This document shows positions 1 to 24,134 of a stretch of 24,277 nucleotides of DNA, in pieces. Under the pieces are notes generated by a model. That model did no database searches. It was not told the origin of the DNA and saw nothing but the letters and a program-made list of their open reading frames with translations. The translations under genes were made by a program, and so were the position numbers. Source of the stretch: Myxococcales bacterium (GTDB taxonomy: Bacteria; Myxococcota; Myxococcia; Myxococcales; Myxococcaceae); the NCBI GenBank assembly GCA_003153055.1, contig PMBV01000482.1, positions 4,727 to 29,003 on the forward strand, given 5' to 3'. How positions within the stretch are numbered: position 1 is the stretch's first letter; each line of letters begins with the position of its first letter.

Positions 1-438
1 CTGCCCGAGCACGCGCAGCGGCTGCTGGAGGACGACCGGCTGCTGATGGTCTTCCCCGAGGGCGCCCGGGGCACCGCCAAGCTCTTCTCGCAGCGCTACT
101 CGCTGGTCGACTTCGGCACCGGCTTCCTCCGCCTGGCCATCAAAACCAAGACGCCCATCATCCCCTTCGGCTTTGTGGGCGGCGCTGACGCGGTGCCCAC
201 CATCTACAACTCCAAGACCCTCGGCAAGCTCCTGGGAGTGCCCTACGTGCCGTTCACGCCCTACGGTCTCGCGGCTCCACTGCCGACGCGGTGCGAGGTG
301 CACTACGGGGCCCCGATGCGCTTCGAGGGCACCGGCAATGAAGACGACCTCGTCGTCCGTGTCTGGGTGGATCAGGTGAAGGCGCGCATCGGCGAGCTGA
401 TGGCCGAGGCACGCAAGGCCCGGGGAGGTGCCCTGTGA
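1..438 (+). CDS. PlsC-like lysophospholipid acyltransferase, 3' part (5' end outside window)
   Basis: The reading frame is open from the first base and ends at TGA 436-438, so only the C-terminal 145 codons are present. The segment FPEGARGTAK (from codon 17) matches the FPEGTRS-type motif III of the PlsC/LPLAT acyltransferase family, which transfers acyl groups from acyl-CoA or acyl-ACP to lysophospholipids at the inner membrane. It is followed by a TPIIPFGFVGG stretch resembling motif IV, where a Pro is conserved. The catalytic HX4D motif would lie upstream and cannot be checked. The ATG at 46 is internal to the motif and is not a plausible start. The stop overlaps the GTG of the next gene (GTGA), so the two are probably translated together. 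The family call is good; the exact substrate is unknown. Confidence 0.85.
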   Translation: MPEHAQRLLEDDRLLMVFPEGARGTAKLFSQRYSLVDFGTGFLRLAIKTKTPIIPFGFVGGADAVPTIYNSKTLGKLLGVPYVPFTPYGLAAPLPTRCEVHYGAPMRFEGTGNEDDLVVRVWVDQVKARIGELMAEARKARGGAL

Positions 439-1358
439 AGGTGCTGGTGGTGGGCATCAGCGGCGCCCTCGCCCGCATGGTGGCGCTGCTCCTCCGTGGG
501 GCCGGGCATGAGGTGGTGGGGCTCGATCGCCGCCCCTGGTGGGACCACCCCAAAGACATCGAGGTCCACGAGTTCGACATTCGCAAGCGCGCGGCGGAGG
601 ACGTGTTCCGCACCGCCCGGCCAGACTGCGTCGTGCACATGGCCACCGTCAACGCCCTCTCGGCCATCGGCGAAGAGCGAGCCCGCATCAACATGGGTGG
701 CACCCGTGCGGTGTTCGACCACAGCGTGGCCTACGGAGTGAAGCACGTGGTCTTCGTCGGCCGGCACACGTACTACGGCGCCACCGACGACTCGCCCCTG
801 TACCACACCGAGAACGAGCCGCCCCAGGGCATGGGCGCCTTCCCCGAGCTCGTCGACCTGGTGGCCGCCGACCTCTACGCCGCCAACATGCTGTGGCGAG
901 AGCCAGCCATCACCACCACGGTGCTGCGCGTGGTGTACACGCTGGGGCCAACCAAGACGGGGACCCTGTCGTCGTTCCTCAAGGGCACGCGGGTGCCGCT
1001 GGTGCTCGGCTTCGACCCCCTGTTCCACTTCATGGAAGAGGAGGACGCGGCGCGCGGCATCGTGGCCGCCGTCGAGAAGCGACCCCGCGGCATCTTCAAC
1101 GTCGCCGGGCCCTCGCCGGTGCCCCTCTCCATCATCATTCGGGAGACTGGGCGCACGGCGGTTCCACTGCCCGAGACCATCATCCGCGCGCTCTTGGGGA
1201 AGTTCGGTCTCCCGGCGCTCCCCAAGGGCGCCGTGCAGCACATCAAGTTCCCCATCGTGGTGGATGCTCGTGCGTTCCACCAGGCGACCGGCTTCGAGCA
1301 CCAGGTGAGCGAGGTCGAGGTGCTCAAGCGCTACCGCCGCGTCCTCGGCGGCAGGTGA
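435..1358 (+). CDS. SDR-fold NAD(P)-binding protein (epimerase/dehydratase-like, atypical active site)
   Basis: 307 aa. GTG start at 435 overlaps the upstream acyltransferase stop by 4 nt. The N-terminus (KVLVVGISGALARMVA, residues 2-17) is a Rossmann beta-alpha unit with a Gly-x-x-Gly turn, followed by VVGLDRRP (28-34), whose Asp fits an NAD-binding extended SDR. The region DCVVHMATV (64-72) matches the usual VxHLAA strand. The expected YxxxK catalytic pair should fall near residues 142-146, where the sequence reads LVAAD, and the preceding Ser/Thr strand reads FVGRHTYYG. The canonical triad therefore appears to be missing. It may be a non-catalytic or divergent SDR acting with the acyltransferase on a lipid or envelope substrate. 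The fold call is firm; the reaction is unknown. Confidence 0.8.
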   Translation: MKVLVVGISGALARMVALLLRGAGHEVVGLDRRPWWDHPKDIEVHEFDIRKRAAEDVFRTARPDCVVHMATVNALSAIGEERARINMGGTRAVFDHSVAYGVKHVVFVGRHTYYGATDDSPLYHTENEPPQGMGAFPELVDLVAADLYAANMLWREPAITTTVLRVVYTLGPTKTGTLSSFLKGTRVPLVLGFDPLFHFMEEEDAARGIVAAVEKRPRGIFNVAGPSPVPLSIIIRETGRTAVPLPETIIRALLGKFGLPALPKGAVQHIKFPIVVDARAFHQATGFEHQVSEVEVLKRYRRVLGGR

Positions 1359-2997: not shown

Positions 2998-4959
2998 TCA
3001 CGGCGTGTCACCGCGGCGATCCGCCCCGCGAATGACGGCGATGATGGCGCTGCGCTGTGACTGAAGCAGCCTCAGCCGCGCCTGGCCCAGCGCGCTCTTC
3101 GAGTCGCTCCAGTCACCCGAATCGACCGCGGCGCTCGAGAGGCGCTCGGGCTCTGCATGCACGCCCAATCGGAGTGGCGCGAGGGTCGCGGCCAAGCTCA
3201 ACCGCTCGGCCTCCTCCGGGGGCACGAGGAGCGTCACTTCTGTCCAAGGGGCTTCCTGGGCACCGGGCCGCTTCCCGTTGGTGACGGTGCCGATGTGGCC
3301 CGTCGCGAGCACTCGAGCGCCCTCGGTGACCATGGTCGTCACCTGGGCCCCGTCGGCGCCGCGAAGGGCGGCGGTGACATCGACTCGATCTCCCTGTTTC
3401 ACGAGCTGCGCCACCTCGGTGCTGACCCACGCGGTGATGCTCACCCCGCGACCGCGGCGGACGGGCCGTCGAGTGAGCCCTCGCTGGAGCCGGATGGCCT
3501 CGAGCTCAGTGAAGAACAGCGGGTCGCCCTCGAAGACTGGCGTGGCCAGCCGTTGGTTGAGCGCGAAGCGGACATCGTCGACCTTCACCAGCTCGGTGGT
3601 CTCGCCGCCCGCGTGGGTGGCCCTCGGCACGGCGCGCACCGCGGTGTTCTCGGAGGTGACGAGCGCCCCTTCCTCGAGGTCCTCGGCCGCTACGACCACG
3701 TCGACCAGGGTCCAGCGCTGCTGAGCCGGCGAGCCAAGGAGCGCGGCGGCCCCGGCGGCGAGGGCCACGGCCACCAGAGCCACCGCGCCCCAGAGGCGTG
3801 GGCCTTGGCGCCAGCCCCGAGTCAACGGGCTCGCCACGCCGATGCGCGTCTCGTTGCTCGAAACGCCCCGCTGAATGAATGGCCGCGCCTCCGTGCGAGC
3901 GGAGTCTCCTGGGGCCTTCTGAACGTGCTTCGGCAGCGGCTTGGAGCGACCGGCGGGGCCCTGCGCTCGCGCCTTCGCCCCGGCTCGCCTCGACGCGCCG
4001 CCGAGTGGGCGGTCAGTGGCTTCGTCGCCCGACGGTCCCCGCGCGGGTGTGGGGAGGGTCACGGTGCGGTCGGGGTCATCATGCGCGGTTCGATCGCGGT
4101 CGCCGCCCAAGGCTCCGCTGGACGCGAGGCGCGCCAAGAGCCGTTGGGCGTCTCGCGGGGGCAGCGACTGCTCCACCAGTGAAGGCAGCGCGGGAATGGC
4201 GTGCGCTGGGCCCTCGGCCTCGGTGCGCACCTCGCTGGCGCGGGCAGACCTGGTCGAGCCGAGGCGCGCCTCCACCGGCAGCTCATTGGCGGGCAAGGTG
4301 GGGTTGGCGCTCTCGGAGAGGCTCTCGGCCCGGCCCATCGGCAGGAGATCGAGGTGCGTGACGTCGGTGCGCCATGGCGTCGCCGACACCAGCACCTCGT
4401 GGCGCAGCACCGGCAAGAGCAACTCGAGGCGGGCGAGGAAAGGGCTCGGGCTCCCGGCGTACTCCCACAGCCAGCGATCATTCCCCAGCTCGTTGCGCTG
4501 GCTGGAGATGCGGGCGAGCTCGGCCAACCCCCGCTCGAGCGTTTTGCGTACCGCGGCCGGATCGAGTCGGAGCGTCTCGGCCAGCTCGATGCCGGGGATG
4601 CCTTCGACCAACCGGAGCACCAACCACTCCCTCAGCGGGTCAGCGAGGGTGACCAGCCGCCCGAGGGTGCGGAGCGCCTCGAGAGAGTGAGTGGGCTCGA
4701 GGGAGCTCTTCGTGCTGAGCTCGGTCGCCAGCCTCCGAGCCTCCGCGACGGCCACCGTCACGAGGTCGGCGTCGTCCTCGACCAGGAGCCCCCGCGCCAG
4801 CGCCCCGTCGAGCAGCCGCGGCATGGCGCCCTCGACAGTCTCATGGGCGGCGTGGGCCAGCGCGACGCCGTGGACAAACGGCGTGACGTATTCACCGAGC
4901 CTCTGCCGTGCGTGTGCATCGCCTGCGCGGCAGAGGGCGACGTCCCTGACCCAGTCCAT
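2998..4959 (-). CDS. ECF-sigma-like N-terminal domain fused to membrane segment and SAF/CpaB(RcpC)-like domain
   Basis: 653 aa, ATG at 4957-4959. Residues 1-150 are helical and resemble an ECF sigma factor: a region-2-like start (CRAGDAHARQRLGEYVTPFV) and a region-4-like helix-turn-helix at about 106-147 (DPLREWLVLRLVEGIPGIE, then LAETLRLDPAAVRKTLERG). Residues 205-380 are a polar Pro/Arg/Ala-rich linker. One hydrophobic segment (389-409) follows. After it, DVVVAAEDLEEGALVTSENT (420-439) is the start of a SAF domain, and about 500-605 (VSITAWVSTEVAQLVKQGDR, then VDVTAAL) resembles the RcpC/CpaB domain of Flp/Tad pilus assembly proteins. The predicted topology is cytoplasmic sigma-like half, one helix, periplasmic SAF half. 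No other tad genes are visible nearby. The domain reading is by motif only. It could be a membrane-tethered regulator or a pilus-assembly protein with a degenerate sigma-like domain. Confidence 0.7.
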   Translation of the reverse strand: MDWVRDVALCRAGDAHARQRLGEYVTPFVHGVALAHAAHETVEGAMPRLLDGALARGLLVEDDADLVTVAVAEARRLATELSTKSSLEPTHSLEALRTLGRLVTLADPLREWLVLRLVEGIPGIELAETLRLDPAAVRKTLERGLAELARISSQRNELGNDRWLWEYAGSPSPFLARLELLLPVLRHEVLVSATPWRTDVTHLDLLPMGRAESLSESANPTLPANELPVEARLGSTRSARASEVRTEAEGPAHAIPALPSLVEQSLPPRDAQRLLARLASSGALGGDRDRTAHDDPDRTVTLPTPARGPSGDEATDRPLGGASRRAGAKARAQGPAGRSKPLPKHVQKAPGDSARTEARPFIQRGVSSNETRIGVASPLTRGWRQGPRLWGAVALVAVALAAGAAALLGSPAQQRWTLVDVVVAAEDLEEGALVTSENTAVRAVPRATHAGGETTELVKVDDVRFALNQRLATPVFEGDPLFFTELEAIRLQRGLTRRPVRRGRGVSITAWVSTEVAQLVKQGDRVDVTAALRGADGAQVTTMVTEGARVLATGHIGTVTNGKRPGAQEAPWTEVTLLVPPEEAERLSLAATLAPLRLGVHAEPERLSSAAVDSGDWSDSKSALGQARLRLLQSQRSAIIAVIRGADRRGDTP

Positions 4960-5109: not shown

Positions 5110-5388
5110 ATGGCAGACATCATCGACCTGTCGCTCGTGATGGAGTCCCGGAAGTACCTCAAGAAGCTGCTCGACGTGCGCGGCGTGGGGTACTTCCTCG
5201 CTCCAGACGCTGGCCGCCCCTTCCGTCTCGAGCCGTCGAAGGTGGACCTGGTGGTTCGCACCGCCGCTCGCTCCCGTGAGTCAGAGCGAGGTCGCCCTCA
5301 CGCGAAGGCCTTCGAGCACGCGCGCTCCGAGGTCCGCAAGGAGCTGATCCGCCGGGTCGTCGCCGAGATGATTCAGGTTGGGCTCTGA
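5110..5388 (+). CDS. Small conserved-looking hypothetical protein (92 aa)
   Basis: 92 aa, ATG 5110-5112, stop 5386-5388, with an AGGGG stretch just upstream as a weak ribosome binding site. The protein begins MADIIDLSLVMESRKYLKKLL and ends in a charged amphipathic stretch (ARSEVRKELIRRVVAEMIQVGL). Codon third positions are strongly G/C, as in neighbouring real genes. There is no signal peptide, membrane segment or recognised motif. It is divergent from the sigma-like/CpaB-like gene (150 bp apart) and 45 bp upstream of the ArsR regulator. I do not recognise the family and give no function. Its short distance to the next gene allows, but does not prove, cotranscription. Confidence 0.6.
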   Translation: MADIIDLSLVMESRKYLKKLLDVRGVGYFLAPDAGRPFRLEPSKVDLVVRTAARSRESERGRPHAKAFEHARSEVRKELIRRVVAEMIQVGL

Positions 5389-8309: not shown

Positions 8310-10137
<1,828 letters not shown>

Positions 10138-21548: not shown

Positions 21549-21929
21549 GTGAGAGTCGATTCGCTGGACGAGCTGAAGCGGGCGTTCGAGGAGTGGCGGG
21601 AGGAGAAGCGGCACCTGCGGGAGGCTGTGCCGGAGGTGTTGTTGGGGCGAGCGAGGCGTTCGGCGGAGGTGCACGGGGAAAGGCCGGTGGCGCGCGCGGC
21701 GAAGCTGGACGGCCGTCGGCTGAAGAGGGCGAGCAGCTCGCCCAGGGGCGAGGGCGGGCGGCTGAAACCGAAGACGCCGGGGTACTCGAAGCTCGAGGTG
21801 GGGACGTCGGTGGCGGGGCGACCCCTGGCGGAGGTGGAGACGCCAAACGGAGTGAAGGTTCGGGTCTACGTCGCGACGGCGGAGATGCTGGCGCTGCTCA
21901 CGGCAGCCAGCGGCGGGGGTGGGCGATGA
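21549..21929 (+). CDS. IS66 TnpA-like accessory protein
   Basis: 126 aa, GTG 21549 preceded by GGAGGAG. The N-terminus is a charged helix (LDELKRAFEEWREEKRHLREAVPEVL). The segment ARRSAEVHGERPVARAAKLDG and the C-terminal VETPNGVKVRVYVATAEMLALL match the general form of IS66 TnpA/orf1 proteins, small factors needed for transposition. Its stop overlaps the start of tnpB (ATGA), so the two are coupled. The helix-turn-helix of typical TnpA is not obvious, so this assignment rests largely on position. Confidence 0.7.
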   Translation: MRVDSLDELKRAFEEWREEKRHLREAVPEVLLGRARRSAEVHGERPVARAAKLDGRRLKRASSSPRGEGGRLKPKTPGYSKLEVGTSVAGRPLAEVETPNGVKVRVYVATAEMLALLTAASGGGGR

Positions 21930-22285
21930 TTCAGCTGCCAGCGAACGCGACGGTGGTGGTGATGCACGAGGCCATCAGCTTCCGGAACGGCATCGAGGGG
22001 ACGGCGGCGGTAGCGCGGGTGGTGCTGCAGCGGGAGCCGATGGACGGGGCGTACTTCGTGTTCCGCAACAAGGGGGGCCAGATGGTACGGATTCTCTACT
22101 ACGACGGCGGGGGATTCTGGCTGTGCACCAAGCGCCTGTCGAAGGGCCGCTTCTCCGCCTGGCCCCGAGGAGACGGACTGGCTCCGGCGTCGGAGTTGCT
22201 GGTGAGGGAGCTGCAAGTCCTTCTCTGGGGCGGAGACCCGGCCAGCTGCGAGTTCCCCGCGCTGTGGCGCAAGGTGGCCGCCTGA
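21926..22285 (+). CDS. tnpB: IS66 accessory protein TnpB
   Basis: 119 aa, ATG in a 4-base overlap with the upstream tnpA stop. The family pattern is clear: a short strand segment, then DGAYFVFRNKGGQMVRILYYDGGGFWLCTKRLSKGRFSAWP, which corresponds to the diagnostic VFxNRxxxxIKxLxWDxxGFxLxxKRLExGxFxWP block of IS66 TnpB (orf2). The protein assists transposition but its biochemical role is unknown. A 106-base gap with no gene separates it from the transposase. Confidence 0.92.
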   Translation: MIQLPANATVVVMHEAISFRNGIEGTAAVARVVLQREPMDGAYFVFRNKGGQMVRILYYDGGGFWLCTKRLSKGRFSAWPRGDGLAPASELLVRELQVLLWGGDPASCEFPALWRKVAA

Positions 22286-22391
22286 GACTGGGGCGATCAG
22301 CCGTGTGGATGGCCCGCATCATTTGGGGTTGAGGCTGGGGAGAAGAAGGGCGAGCAGCGAGGGCGGGAGTGTGATCTGACCGACGTTGCGA

Positions 22392-24134
22392 ATGGTCCGG
22401 CGGATAGACGTCAGCCTCGACGGGTTGCACCAACTGCTCCACCGGCTGGAGAAGAAGGAGCTGGTGGACGGGGACTGGGCCATCTGCGCGTCGCTGGTGC
22501 TGCAGCTCATCACCCGGGTGCAGGGGAAACAGGACCGGATGGTGGCCAAGTTGGCGGCGGCGGCCAGTGCAGGCGCACCGGGCGAAGTCATTGAGGGTCA
22601 GCTGGCGTCGAGCGAGACGCCGTCGGCACTGACCGCAGGAGCGTCGCCGCCGGGGCCCGGGCCAGAGGAGAGCGCGACGGCCGGCGCGACGTCGACGGCG
22701 CCGGAGGCGAAGAAGGCCAAGGGGCACGGGCGGAACGGCGCCGCGGCCTTCGTCAACGCCAAGGACGTCACCCATCCCCTGGCGGGCGGACAGGTGGGCG
22801 CCCTTTGCTCCGCCTGCGGGGCGGGGCGACTGACGCGGTACCGCGAGAAGGTCGTCATCCGAGTCGTGGGCCAGCCCCTCTTCGCCGCCGAGCGCCACCA
22901 CCTGGAGCAGGCGCGGTGCCGGAGCTGCGGAAAAGTCGTCCGGGCCGAGGCGCCGGCCAGCATCCTCGAGGGCGTCGGCAGCAGCTACGTGGTGTACGAC
23001 TGGTCCGCCTGCGCGATGCTGTGCATGATTCACTACTTCGCCGCGAATCCATTCAAGCGGCTGGAGTCGCTCCACCAGGGCTGGGGCATGCCCCTGGCCG
23101 ACGCCAACCAGTGGCGCGTCGTCGACGAGGCCGACGACTTGCTCCTCCCCGTGCACCGGGAGCTTGAGCGCCACGCCGTCCAGCAGGCGACGACGCTGCG
23201 CATCGACGACACCAGCTCGATGGTGGTGGCCCTGGCTCGGCAAATTCAAGCCGAAGTCGCCGCTCTCGAGGCAGCGGGGGTCTCCACCAAGAGCGTCCGG
23301 ACGGGCATCAACGCCACCGGCATCTTCCTCGAGACGCCCAGCGGCACCGTCATCCTCTTCTTCACCGGCCGCCACCACGCAGGTGAAGTCCTCGACCGGC
23401 TACTGGCCCGCCGCAAGCCCGTGCCCGGTGCCGCCCCCCTGGTGAAAGTCACCGACGGCGCCTCGAAGAATTTCGACCATCAGCACCAAGGCCAAATCGT
23501 CGAGGGGACCTGCAACGCCCACGCCTTCCTCAAGTTCCGCGACGTCAAGGACAAGCACCCCGTCGAGTACGCCATTGCCGGCGAAGTCTACAAGGCCGTC
23601 TTCGACAACGACGACGAGGCCAAGGCCCGCCGCCTGTCCCCTCAAGACAGAATGCTCCTCCACCTTCAGCACTCCAAGCCCCTGATGGAGAGGCTCAAGG
23701 CCATGTGCGAGGAGAAGCTCAAGAGCAAGCTCGTCGAGCCCTCTTCTGCCCTCTGGGAGCCCCTCACCTTCATCATCAACCAGTGGCCCCGCCTCACCCG
23801 CTTCTACGAGGTGCCCGACGTCCCCCTCGACACCAACCTCGTCGAGCAGACCCTCATCATCCCCGTCCGCTACCTCGCCGCCTCCTTCAACTACCAAACT
23901 CAGACTGGCGCCGACGTCGGCGACCGGATGATGTCTCTCATCGCCTCCGCCCGGGCCAACGACGTCGAGCCCGTCGCCTACCTCGCCTACTGCCTCAAGC
24001 ACCACGCTGAGCTCGCTCGAAGGCCCGCGGATTTCCTCCCATGGGCGCTCCGCGATGTCCTCCGCCTCCCGGCTCCCTCAACCTCCGGCTCAGGCCCCGG
24101 CCCAGTTGCCGCCGCGGGCGGTCCCACCGGCTGA
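22392..24134 (+). CDS. tnpC: IS66-family DDE transposase (TnpC)
   Basis: 580 aa from ATG 22392; an in-frame TTG at 22386 would add two residues. The N-terminal part has a helical LHQLLHRLEKKEL stretch, a Pro/Ala-rich spacer and a zinc-finger-like pair (C139-x2-C142 and C176-x2-C179). The catalytic residues are visible: D273 in LRIDDTS, D355 in VKVTDGASKN and E485 in PLDTNLVEQTL, which matches the xxDNNxxERxxRP block. LIASARANDVEPVAYL (516-531) is the IS66 C-terminal signature. The length is normal for the family and the frame is intact, so the element may still be active. The protein is transcribed in the same direction as the interrupted permease. Confidence 0.93.
   Translation: MVRRIDVSLDGLHQLLHRLEKKELVDGDWAICASLVLQLITRVQGKQDRMVAKLAAAASAGAPGEVIEGQLASSETPSALTAGASPPGPGPEESATAGATSTAPEAKKAKGHGRNGAAAFVNAKDVTHPLAGGQVGALCSACGAGRLTRYREKVVIRVVGQPLFAAERHHLEQARCRSCGKVVRAEAPASILEGVGSSYVVYDWSACAMLCMIHYFAANPFKRLESLHQGWGMPLADANQWRVVDEADDLLLPVHRELERHAVQQATTLRIDDTSSMVVALARQIQAEVAALEAAGVSTKSVRTGINATGIFLETPSGTVILFFTGRHHAGEVLDRLLARRKPVPGAAPLVKVTDGASKNFDHQHQGQIVEGTCNAHAFLKFRDVKDKHPVEYAIAGEVYKAVFDNDDEAKARRLSPQDRMLLHLQHSKPLMERLKAMCEEKLKSKLVEPSSALWEPLTFIINQWPRLTRFYEVPDVPLDTNLVEQTLIIPVRYLAASFNYQTQTGADVGDRMMSLIASARANDVEPVAYLAYCLKHHAELARRPADFLPWALRDVLRLPAPSTSGSGPGPVAAAGGPTG

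Follow-up and report, generated by a model that had tools for sequence, protein, structure and literature searches.

A putative pseudo-sigma domain joined to a CpaB-type half in a predicted membrane protein of the Myxococcales, and its two-gene relatives

Background

The sigma-like domain of PhyR binds the anti-sigma factor NepR. Other systems unite a sigma factor of the extracytoplasmic function (ECF) type and its anti-sigma factor in a single chain: IutY of Pseudomonas putida (ECF243), ECF48, SCO4117 of ECF52, and ECF53 are sigma/anti-sigma fusions (PMC8999054, PMC5826349). Here we consider a gene in a 24,277-nucleotide stretch of DNA from a Myxococcales bacterium (contig PMBV01000482.1 of assembly GCA_003153055.1, positions 4,727 to 29,003), referred to at its full length as the window. 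The product of this gene (the window protein) joins a sigma-like N-terminal domain (the N-domain) to a membrane helix and a periplasmic half of the CpaB type, and its sigma half appears to have kept the fold of a sigma factor after losing the residues for binding core RNA polymerase.

The window protein resembles IutY, ECF48, ECF52, and ECF53 in that a sigma-type part, an anti-sigma part (putative in the window protein), and a membrane helix, with an extracytoplasmic part in some of those proteins, share one polypeptide. However, IutY and SCO4117 are active sigmas, and activity is expected of the others, whereas the window protein lacks the core-binding residues, no zinc finger was found in it, and its periplasmic part is CpaB. 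Sequence and modelling suggest a closed fold and a motif loss of the N-domain that would be compatible with a sigma mimic such as PhyR. Unlike PhyR, the window protein is membrane-anchored and has its own anti-sigma-like segment and a CpaB half; a receiver domain, by which a PhyR would be recognised, was absent from its Pfam matches up to E 10.

RcpC is a dodecameric, secretin-bound periplasmic ring anchored through one helix (PMC12307814), and the contact-killing Kil system of myxobacteria employs a CpaB homologue (PMC8460266). CpaB, RcpC, and KilB have in common with the window protein a periplasmic half composed of SAF and RcpC and one membrane helix. They differ from it in that the window protein has a cytoplasmic extension of ~388 residues and its gene lies outside any Tad cluster seen.

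Architecture and sigma ancestry of the window protein

An earlier reading of the DNA, made from the sequence alone, had placed a sigma-like domain, a membrane helix, and a SAF/CpaB-like region in one protein. Pfam, NCBIfam, the homologues, and AlphaFold2 models confirm this, and the general idea behind it, a sigma part and a periplasmic sensor within one chain, was right. From the N to the C terminus, the parts are a pseudo-sigma domain, an anti-sigma-like segment, a linker, the membrane helix, and CpaB, an order common to most homologues.

When residues 1-150 are searched as a single sequence, Pfam sigma region 4 (PF08281) gives a sub-threshold match (0.014, residues 104-148), Pfam sigma region 2 gives none, and NCBIfam sigma models score far under their cut-offs. 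Thus, with only region 4 at 0.014 and no region 2, this search, which the sequence-only reading had proposed, came close to denying a sigma relation. The conclusion of no sigma relation was reversed by family profiles, structure, and intact relatives. PF08281 is found in 13 of 19 family members at E <= 1 and reaches 31.1 bits, above its cut-off, in L081, and a search with a model built from the aligned N-domains reaches stand-alone ECF sigma genes (4.5e-30 to 7.7e-25). AlphaFold2 predicts eight sigma-like helices in a closed, sigma-like fold, with a mean predicted local distance difference test (pLDDT) score of 91.5, and the structural matches of the N-domain, among those listed, are by title sigma factors, PhyR, and transcription complexes. 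The sigma-2 plus sigma-4 fold of an ECF sigma factor is therefore present in the modelled N-domain, and the ECF-sigma-like character assigned to the N-terminal ~150 residues is borne out, as ancestry, by the family model, the predicted fold, and the intact relatives.

The CpaB half is recognised by NCBIfam TIGR03177 (pilus_cpaB; 79 bits against a cut-off of 71), by Pfam RcpC PF16976 (2.4e-14; 53.6 bits against 28.8), and by Pfam SAF PF08666 (4.9e-4; 21.0 bits, exactly at the cut-off), so that the SAF plus RcpC/CpaB-like C-terminal region also stands. Foldseek matches the RcpC domain to 9gzr_B (Tad pilus RcpC) with an E of 8.5e-7. Structural (VIA) matches at 417-486 include antifreeze type III, NeuB, and FlgA chains, which we take to be of the SAF fold. 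Because the full-length AlphaFold2 model has a predicted template modelling score of 0.38, the placement of the domains across the linker is left uninterpreted.

Family and distribution

A protein search at E <= 1e-3 yielded 21 proteins, which are 20 homologues and P0002, a 537-residue piece of the window protein that was dropped from alignments. N-domain and CpaB are both present in 18 of the homologues; P0004 and P0022 stop after the membrane helix. A later profile search gave 17 matches, including P0007 and P0014, known already, and P0143 and P0144, which are L080 and L082. When one genome per species was scanned, 12 loci were found, all titled as Myxococcota-type metagenome-assembled genomes (MAGs); the carriers are myxobacteria for which metagenomes are the main source.

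Within the same bacterial family, 18 of 96 genomes contain the N-domain. Ten of these have CpaB (G001-G007, G055, G093, G094), and eight have N-domain, linker, and membrane helix without it (G008-G012, G058, G095, G096). At phylum level, where the best 17 candidates from each of 195 genomes were scored, family-type matches (E 9e-65 or better) were confined to those 18, and the next-best matches were ECF-type genes (4.5e-30 to 7.7e-25) in the same genomes. The eight carriers without CpaB show the periplasmic half to be dispensable, and persistence of the cytoplasmic half in them fits a binding role in the cytoplasm.

No Tad gene was found among the 20 window open reading frames (ORFs) scanned with Pfam, and the 18 contigs with a homologue, short ones among them, are free of T2SSF (TadB/TadC family) genes. 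The remark that Tad genes do not adjoin the gene thus holds in the window and, as judged by T2SSF matches, on these contigs. A stand-alone CpaB gene lies beside two T2SSF genes on a separate contig in 17 of the 18 genomes, with G094 not among the matches listed. The one such cluster scanned with Pfam (L142:5788-13127) is of Tad type; an ECF sigma and a zf-HC2 protein form one end of it, followed by a small protein that resembles a pilin, CpaB, two T2SSF proteins, and one FHA protein.

Loss of sigma motifs under purifying selection

Motifs were counted in 49 family members, after omission of P0157 (N-terminally cut) and of P0143 and P0144 (the same as L080 and L082), and in 21 stand-alone relatives from the same genomes, 7 paired with FecR and 14 with CpaB. 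The acidic/Gln motif of region 2.2, which contacts core RNA polymerase, is intact in 0/49 family members versus 21/21 relatives, all of which also carry the Trp of region 2.3. This Trp is kept in nine of the 49 (L052/L082 and eight divergent proteins of the later profile search) and the region 2.2 Gln in two. PF04542 (sigma region 2) was matched by none of 19 family members at E <= 1 and by all 10 of the pair sigmas scanned, 10 of the 14 having entered the Pfam-scanned set. Across the 49 members, no Ser or Thr is conserved in place of the region 2.2 motif; some members have one nearby, and the window copy has a Thr at the first aligned site. The region 4.2 stretch, counted on uncut N-domains, has a mean charge of -1.5 in the family (range -4 to +1) versus +3.1 in the relatives, both groups of which are alike, and at two positions where the relatives have Asn and His/Cys/Phe, the family has Glu or Asp.

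The ratio of nonsynonymous to synonymous substitution rates (dN/dS; a simple NG86 estimate, with dS up to about 1) is 0.09-0.37 for the N-domain and 0.03-0.44 for segment 153-190, each in 7 comparisons among carriers, and the N-domain ranks among the best conserved parts of the protein in the family alignment. In these sequence comparisons, the N-domain is under purifying selection. Motif loss combined with low dN/dS suggests that the domain is functional, though probably not as a polymerase subunit. The sequence-only reading had supposed that a periplasmic signal could reach a promoter through the sigma half, an idea left unsupported by the loss of region 2.2 throughout the family, a Trp in only 9/49, and a mostly acidic region 4.2; in its simple form, it appears unlikely. 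By the same motif losses, the window protein would lack the active sigma half of the sigma/anti-sigma fusions.

A two-gene relative with an intact sigma factor

In 14 genomes (G001, G003-G012, G058, G093, G096), a CpaB-type gene comes after an intact ECF sigma gene, and the two overlap in those measured (L126-L139). The N-terminus of the partner product reads approximately (M)SDYLWDKSG.DP..E.LE..L.GLAYD (or PLFD...), and in 12 of the 14, those with a sufficiently long contig, it continues with a membrane helix and SAF-RcpC; two of the pairs were scanned with Pfam. The YLWD/PLFD segment is doubled in L126, L127, and L129. At E <= 1e-30, among the best 33 candidates scored per genome, the pair sigma is found in 14 of the 96 family genomes, all of them among the 18 pseudo-sigma carriers, and in none of the other 78. 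No T2SSF gene is present on the pair contigs. From gene order, overlap, and topology, we infer that the CpaB partner of this sigma/CpaB pair is an anti-sigma factor whose CpaB half serves as the sensor.

The pair sigmas are among the nearest intact sigmas found, and the pair has both the YLWD..G..LE segment and the CpaB half in common with the window protein; it differs in consisting of two genes and in having intact sigma motifs. These stand-alone relatives account for the architecture: the window protein resembles a sigma/CpaB pair merged into one chain, with a sigma half that looks dead as a sigma. The sequence-only reading had nothing on segment 157-190, and the two-gene version lay beyond its view.

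As a separate observation, L126-L129 carry an extra stand-alone CpaB ORF just downstream of the pair, with no T2SSF there.

The anti-sigma-like segment and the linker

AlphaFold2 places two helices in segment 157-190 (162-166 and 173-185), both at high pLDDT, and the segment resembles the YLWD..G..LE segment at the N-terminus of the CpaB partners of intact ECF sigmas. Because a profile of the segment found no significant partner, patterns were relied on. A loose pattern gave 18 matches in a set of 4336 distinct ORFs. Most are pair CpaB ORFs (12 of 13, with L138, the fourteenth, in addition) or truncated second reads of such genes (L014, L016); the others are one of 7 FecR-type ORFs, a fragment of a fusion gene (L042), and a single unrelated ORF. 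A stricter pattern gave 13 matches, namely 6 of the 13 pair ORFs, 3 of the 7 FecR-type ORFs, L014, L016, L042, and L138. No zinc-finger anti-sigma domain is among the Pfam matches of the window protein. In the order of parts typical of sigma/anti-sigma fusions, the sigma-type fold, the helix, and CpaB are found, and the anti-sigma part is assigned from a pattern, its profile being without significance. Among the FecR-like partners, L076-L079 are without a YLWD segment by eye and L073-L075 have it; partner N-termini thus vary inside one FecR-paired sigma group (ORF after the ECF gene).

The linker of ~200 residues is predicted to be disordered (pLDDT < 50 at 190-266 and 281-387) and has the highest dN/dS of all regions in 5 of 7 comparisons. 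It carries the motif T....(D/E)LP(A/V).A in 37 of 39 family rows, two rows being repeats. A stricter form is found in 20 of 4361 distinct ORFs, every one a family gene or a piece of one, and the window copy fails this form. Its conservation suggests that the motif is likely a docking site. FHA/phospho-threonine docking, prompted by ETRIG-like strings in the linker, was dropped because the strings are inconsistently present. The 19-residue hydropathy maximum of 2.25 at 391 coincides with an AlphaFold2 helix (389-408), and so the long polar linker and single membrane helix described earlier agree with pLDDT, hydropathy, and the model.

Proposed function and its alternatives

By analogy with PhyR, the window protein most likely acts by protein-protein binding in a sigma network. 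With somewhat less than even confidence, we favour a reading in which an ECF sigma and an anti-sigma-type partner were joined with CpaB, and the resulting pseudo-sigma tunes the amount of free real ECF sigma. The sigma half would keep a closed sigma-2/sigma-4 fold without the features for core RNA polymerase binding. It would hold its own YLWD-type segment in cis and perhaps also bind the segment of the sigma-paired CpaB in trans, releasing the real ECF sigma much as the PhyR sigma-like domain behaves toward NepR. CpaB and the linker would tie the protein to the envelope and link it with a periplasmic state.

Several observations weigh against this proposal. The pair falls under the threshold in 4 of the 18 pseudo-sigma genomes (G002, G055, G094, G095), in a search of the 96 genomes that scored the best 33 candidates per genome, and the co-occurrence of pair and pseudo-sigma may come from shared descent. 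The region 4.2 stretch of the window copy itself has a charge of +1, the upper limit of the family range. The segment is short, its profile gave no significant partner match among 4999 ORFs (best partner E 0.17), and the segment patterns were written after the sequences had been seen. Fusion N-domains form one clade on a long stem (100/99, 29 rows), but the sigma tree is a three-way fork of fusion, CpaB-pair, and FecR-pair sigmas. In the CpaB tree, which leaves out overlapping reads of the same genes, 16 of 18 fusion CpaBs fall in one supported clade with long branches; the pair CpaBs nest among canonical CpaBs and the fusion CpaBs stand apart. Given this fork and the CpaB tree, derivation of the fusion from the pair is treated as hypothetical, and the fusion may predate today's pairs.

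A role in Tad/Kil assembly, with no part in transcription, is considered unlikely. CpaB would join or cap the alignment ring, and pseudo-sigma and linker would dock motor or FHA proteins. The dodecameric RcpC ring with its one-helix anchor (PMC12307814) would suit such an adaptor, as would the stand-alone CpaB gene that 17 of the 18 genomes carry next to two T2SSF genes on a different contig, the FHA protein of the L142 cluster, and the strongly kept linker motif. However, eight of the 18 genomes retain N-domain, linker, and helix without CpaB, T2SSF is on none of the 18 contigs of the gene, and the anti-sigma-like segment would be left unexplained.

A bolder extension of the pseudo-sigma proposal, which we consider decidedly unlikely, holds that ECF sigma factors have recruited CpaB-type alignment rings for sensing at the envelope. 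The intact pair would sense through CpaB and hold the real sigma, and the window protein would be a membrane-bound decoy (anti-anti-sigma) in the same ring, competing for the segment.

It is quite improbable that the window protein is an active ECF sigma/anti-sigma fusion tethered in the membrane, like IutY (ECF243) or SCO4117 (ECF52), with a periplasmic half that acts as sensor and a proteolytic step that releases the N-terminal sigma to bind RNA polymerase. The order of parts equals that of those fusions (PMC8999054, PMC5826349), and the sigma-4 helix-turn-helix is still recognisable, above the Pfam cut-off in L081. Nor is loss of region 2.2 fatal in itself, since ECF43/EcfP, which likewise lacks the acidic region 2.2 motif (PMC8999054), has a phosphorylatable Thr in its place and is activated by phosphorylation of it; the window copy, as noted, has a Thr at the first aligned site. 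In contrast to EcfP, however, the present family has no conserved Ser/Thr there in addition to having no intact region 2.2 motif in 49 members and a region 2.3 Trp in only nine. The mostly acidic region 4.2, the lack of PF04542 in all 19 members, and the absence of a zinc-finger anti-sigma domain from the Pfam matches argue in the same direction.

ToxR and CadC offer the analogy of a membrane one-component regulator. A helix-turn-helix that binds DNA from the membrane in this way, without RNA polymerase, would fit the topology (cytoplasmic helix-turn-helix, long linker, one helix, periplasmic domain), the kept helix-turn-helix fold, and the +1 charge of the window region 4.2 stretch. We regard it as very unlikely in view of the mean region 4.2 charge (-1.5 in 49 members versus +3.1 in 21 relatives) and of the Glu/Asp where relatives have Asn and His/Cys/Phe. 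Finally, a decaying gene, chimaera, or assembly artefact would agree with the lost sigma motifs and with the MAG titles of 12/12 named genome loci, but is extremely improbable given the same architecture in many separate assemblies, the same divergent gene in 17 of 18 genomes, and an N-domain that is among the best conserved parts and has a dN/dS of 0.09-0.37 in 7 comparisons.

The locus and its neighbours

Features of the gene and of two neighbours are collected in Table 1.

Table 1. Features of the pseudo-sigma/CpaB gene and of neighbouring genes, in window positions
Feature	Positions	Strand	Residues	Basis or remark
Whole gene	2998..4959	(-)	653 aa	ATG start, uninterrupted frame
Sigma-2-like part, four predicted helices	4699..4959	(-)	1-87	AlphaFold2 helices, structural (VIA) matches, motif counts
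Sigma-4-like part with helix-turn-helix	4504..4680	(-)	94-152	Sub-threshold Pfam Sigma70_r4_2 and structure
Anti-sigma-like segment, contains RWLWEYAGSP...LARLELLLPVLRHE	4390..4491	(-)	157-190	Pattern common to CpaB partners
Cytoplasmic linker, polar, predicted disordered	3799..4389	(-)	191-387	pLDDT
Short linker motif around T....(D/E)LP(A/V).A	4261..4299	(-)	221-233	Family alignment
Membrane helix, single	3736..3795	(-)	389-408	Hydropathy and AlphaFold2 helix
SAF domain	3517..3702	(-)	420-481	Pfam PF08666, structural (VIA) matches
RcpC/CpaB domain	3163..3450	(-)	504-599	Pfam PF16976, Foldseek 9gzr_B
Divergent neighbour "MADIID..."	5110..5388	(+)	92 aa	No Pfam family
Convergent NAD-dependent epimerase	435..1358	(+)		Pfam PF01370

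The MADIID gene is single-copy and present in 92 of the 96 family genomes. In 17 of the 18 carriers, it stands divergently beside the pseudo-sigma gene; in G094, it lies ~12 kb off. As a candidate partner, it was rejected, most of its 92 genomes being without a pseudo-sigma gene; its presence in 92/96 makes it a locus marker and no partner specific to the system. At 20 listed MADIID loci without pseudo-sigma, it has other neighbours, such as an aminotransferase-like gene, and some of these neighbours are presumably biotin-type genes.

From a look at ORF starts, an epimerase-like ORF is downstream of the gene in L002, L003, L005, and L006. In the window, a polysaccharide flippase gene (1435-2964) lies between the gene and the epimerase; in several relatives, the epimerase is the direct neighbour, without an intervening flippase. 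Elsewhere, the window contains a protein of GH11 xylanase type in which Pfam finds two InlB B-repeat-like stretches (8543-10051) and an IS66-type element with TnpB_IS66 and DDE_Tnp_IS66 ORFs (21593-24134).

Implications

The intact sigma/CpaB pair outweighs the window protein as a find. It links CpaB, the Tad pilus alignment protein, with ECF sigma signalling, a junction that was not found in a literature search; that search also returned no CpaB anti-sigma, with the main ECF reclassification outside its scope and absence from print not established. The two-gene relatives also render the idea directly testable. The fused pseudo-sigma, for its part, appears to be a case of a sigma-type domain retained under selection after loss of the polymerase-binding motif, and it occurs in relatives of the myxobacteria that kill by contact through the Kil system with its CpaB homologue (PMC8460266). 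If the window protein were indeed a decoy within a sensing CpaB ring, the assembly or strain of a pilus machine would set a transcription programme. More generally, these genes give a hint that pilus-type proteins can serve as sensors for gene regulation.
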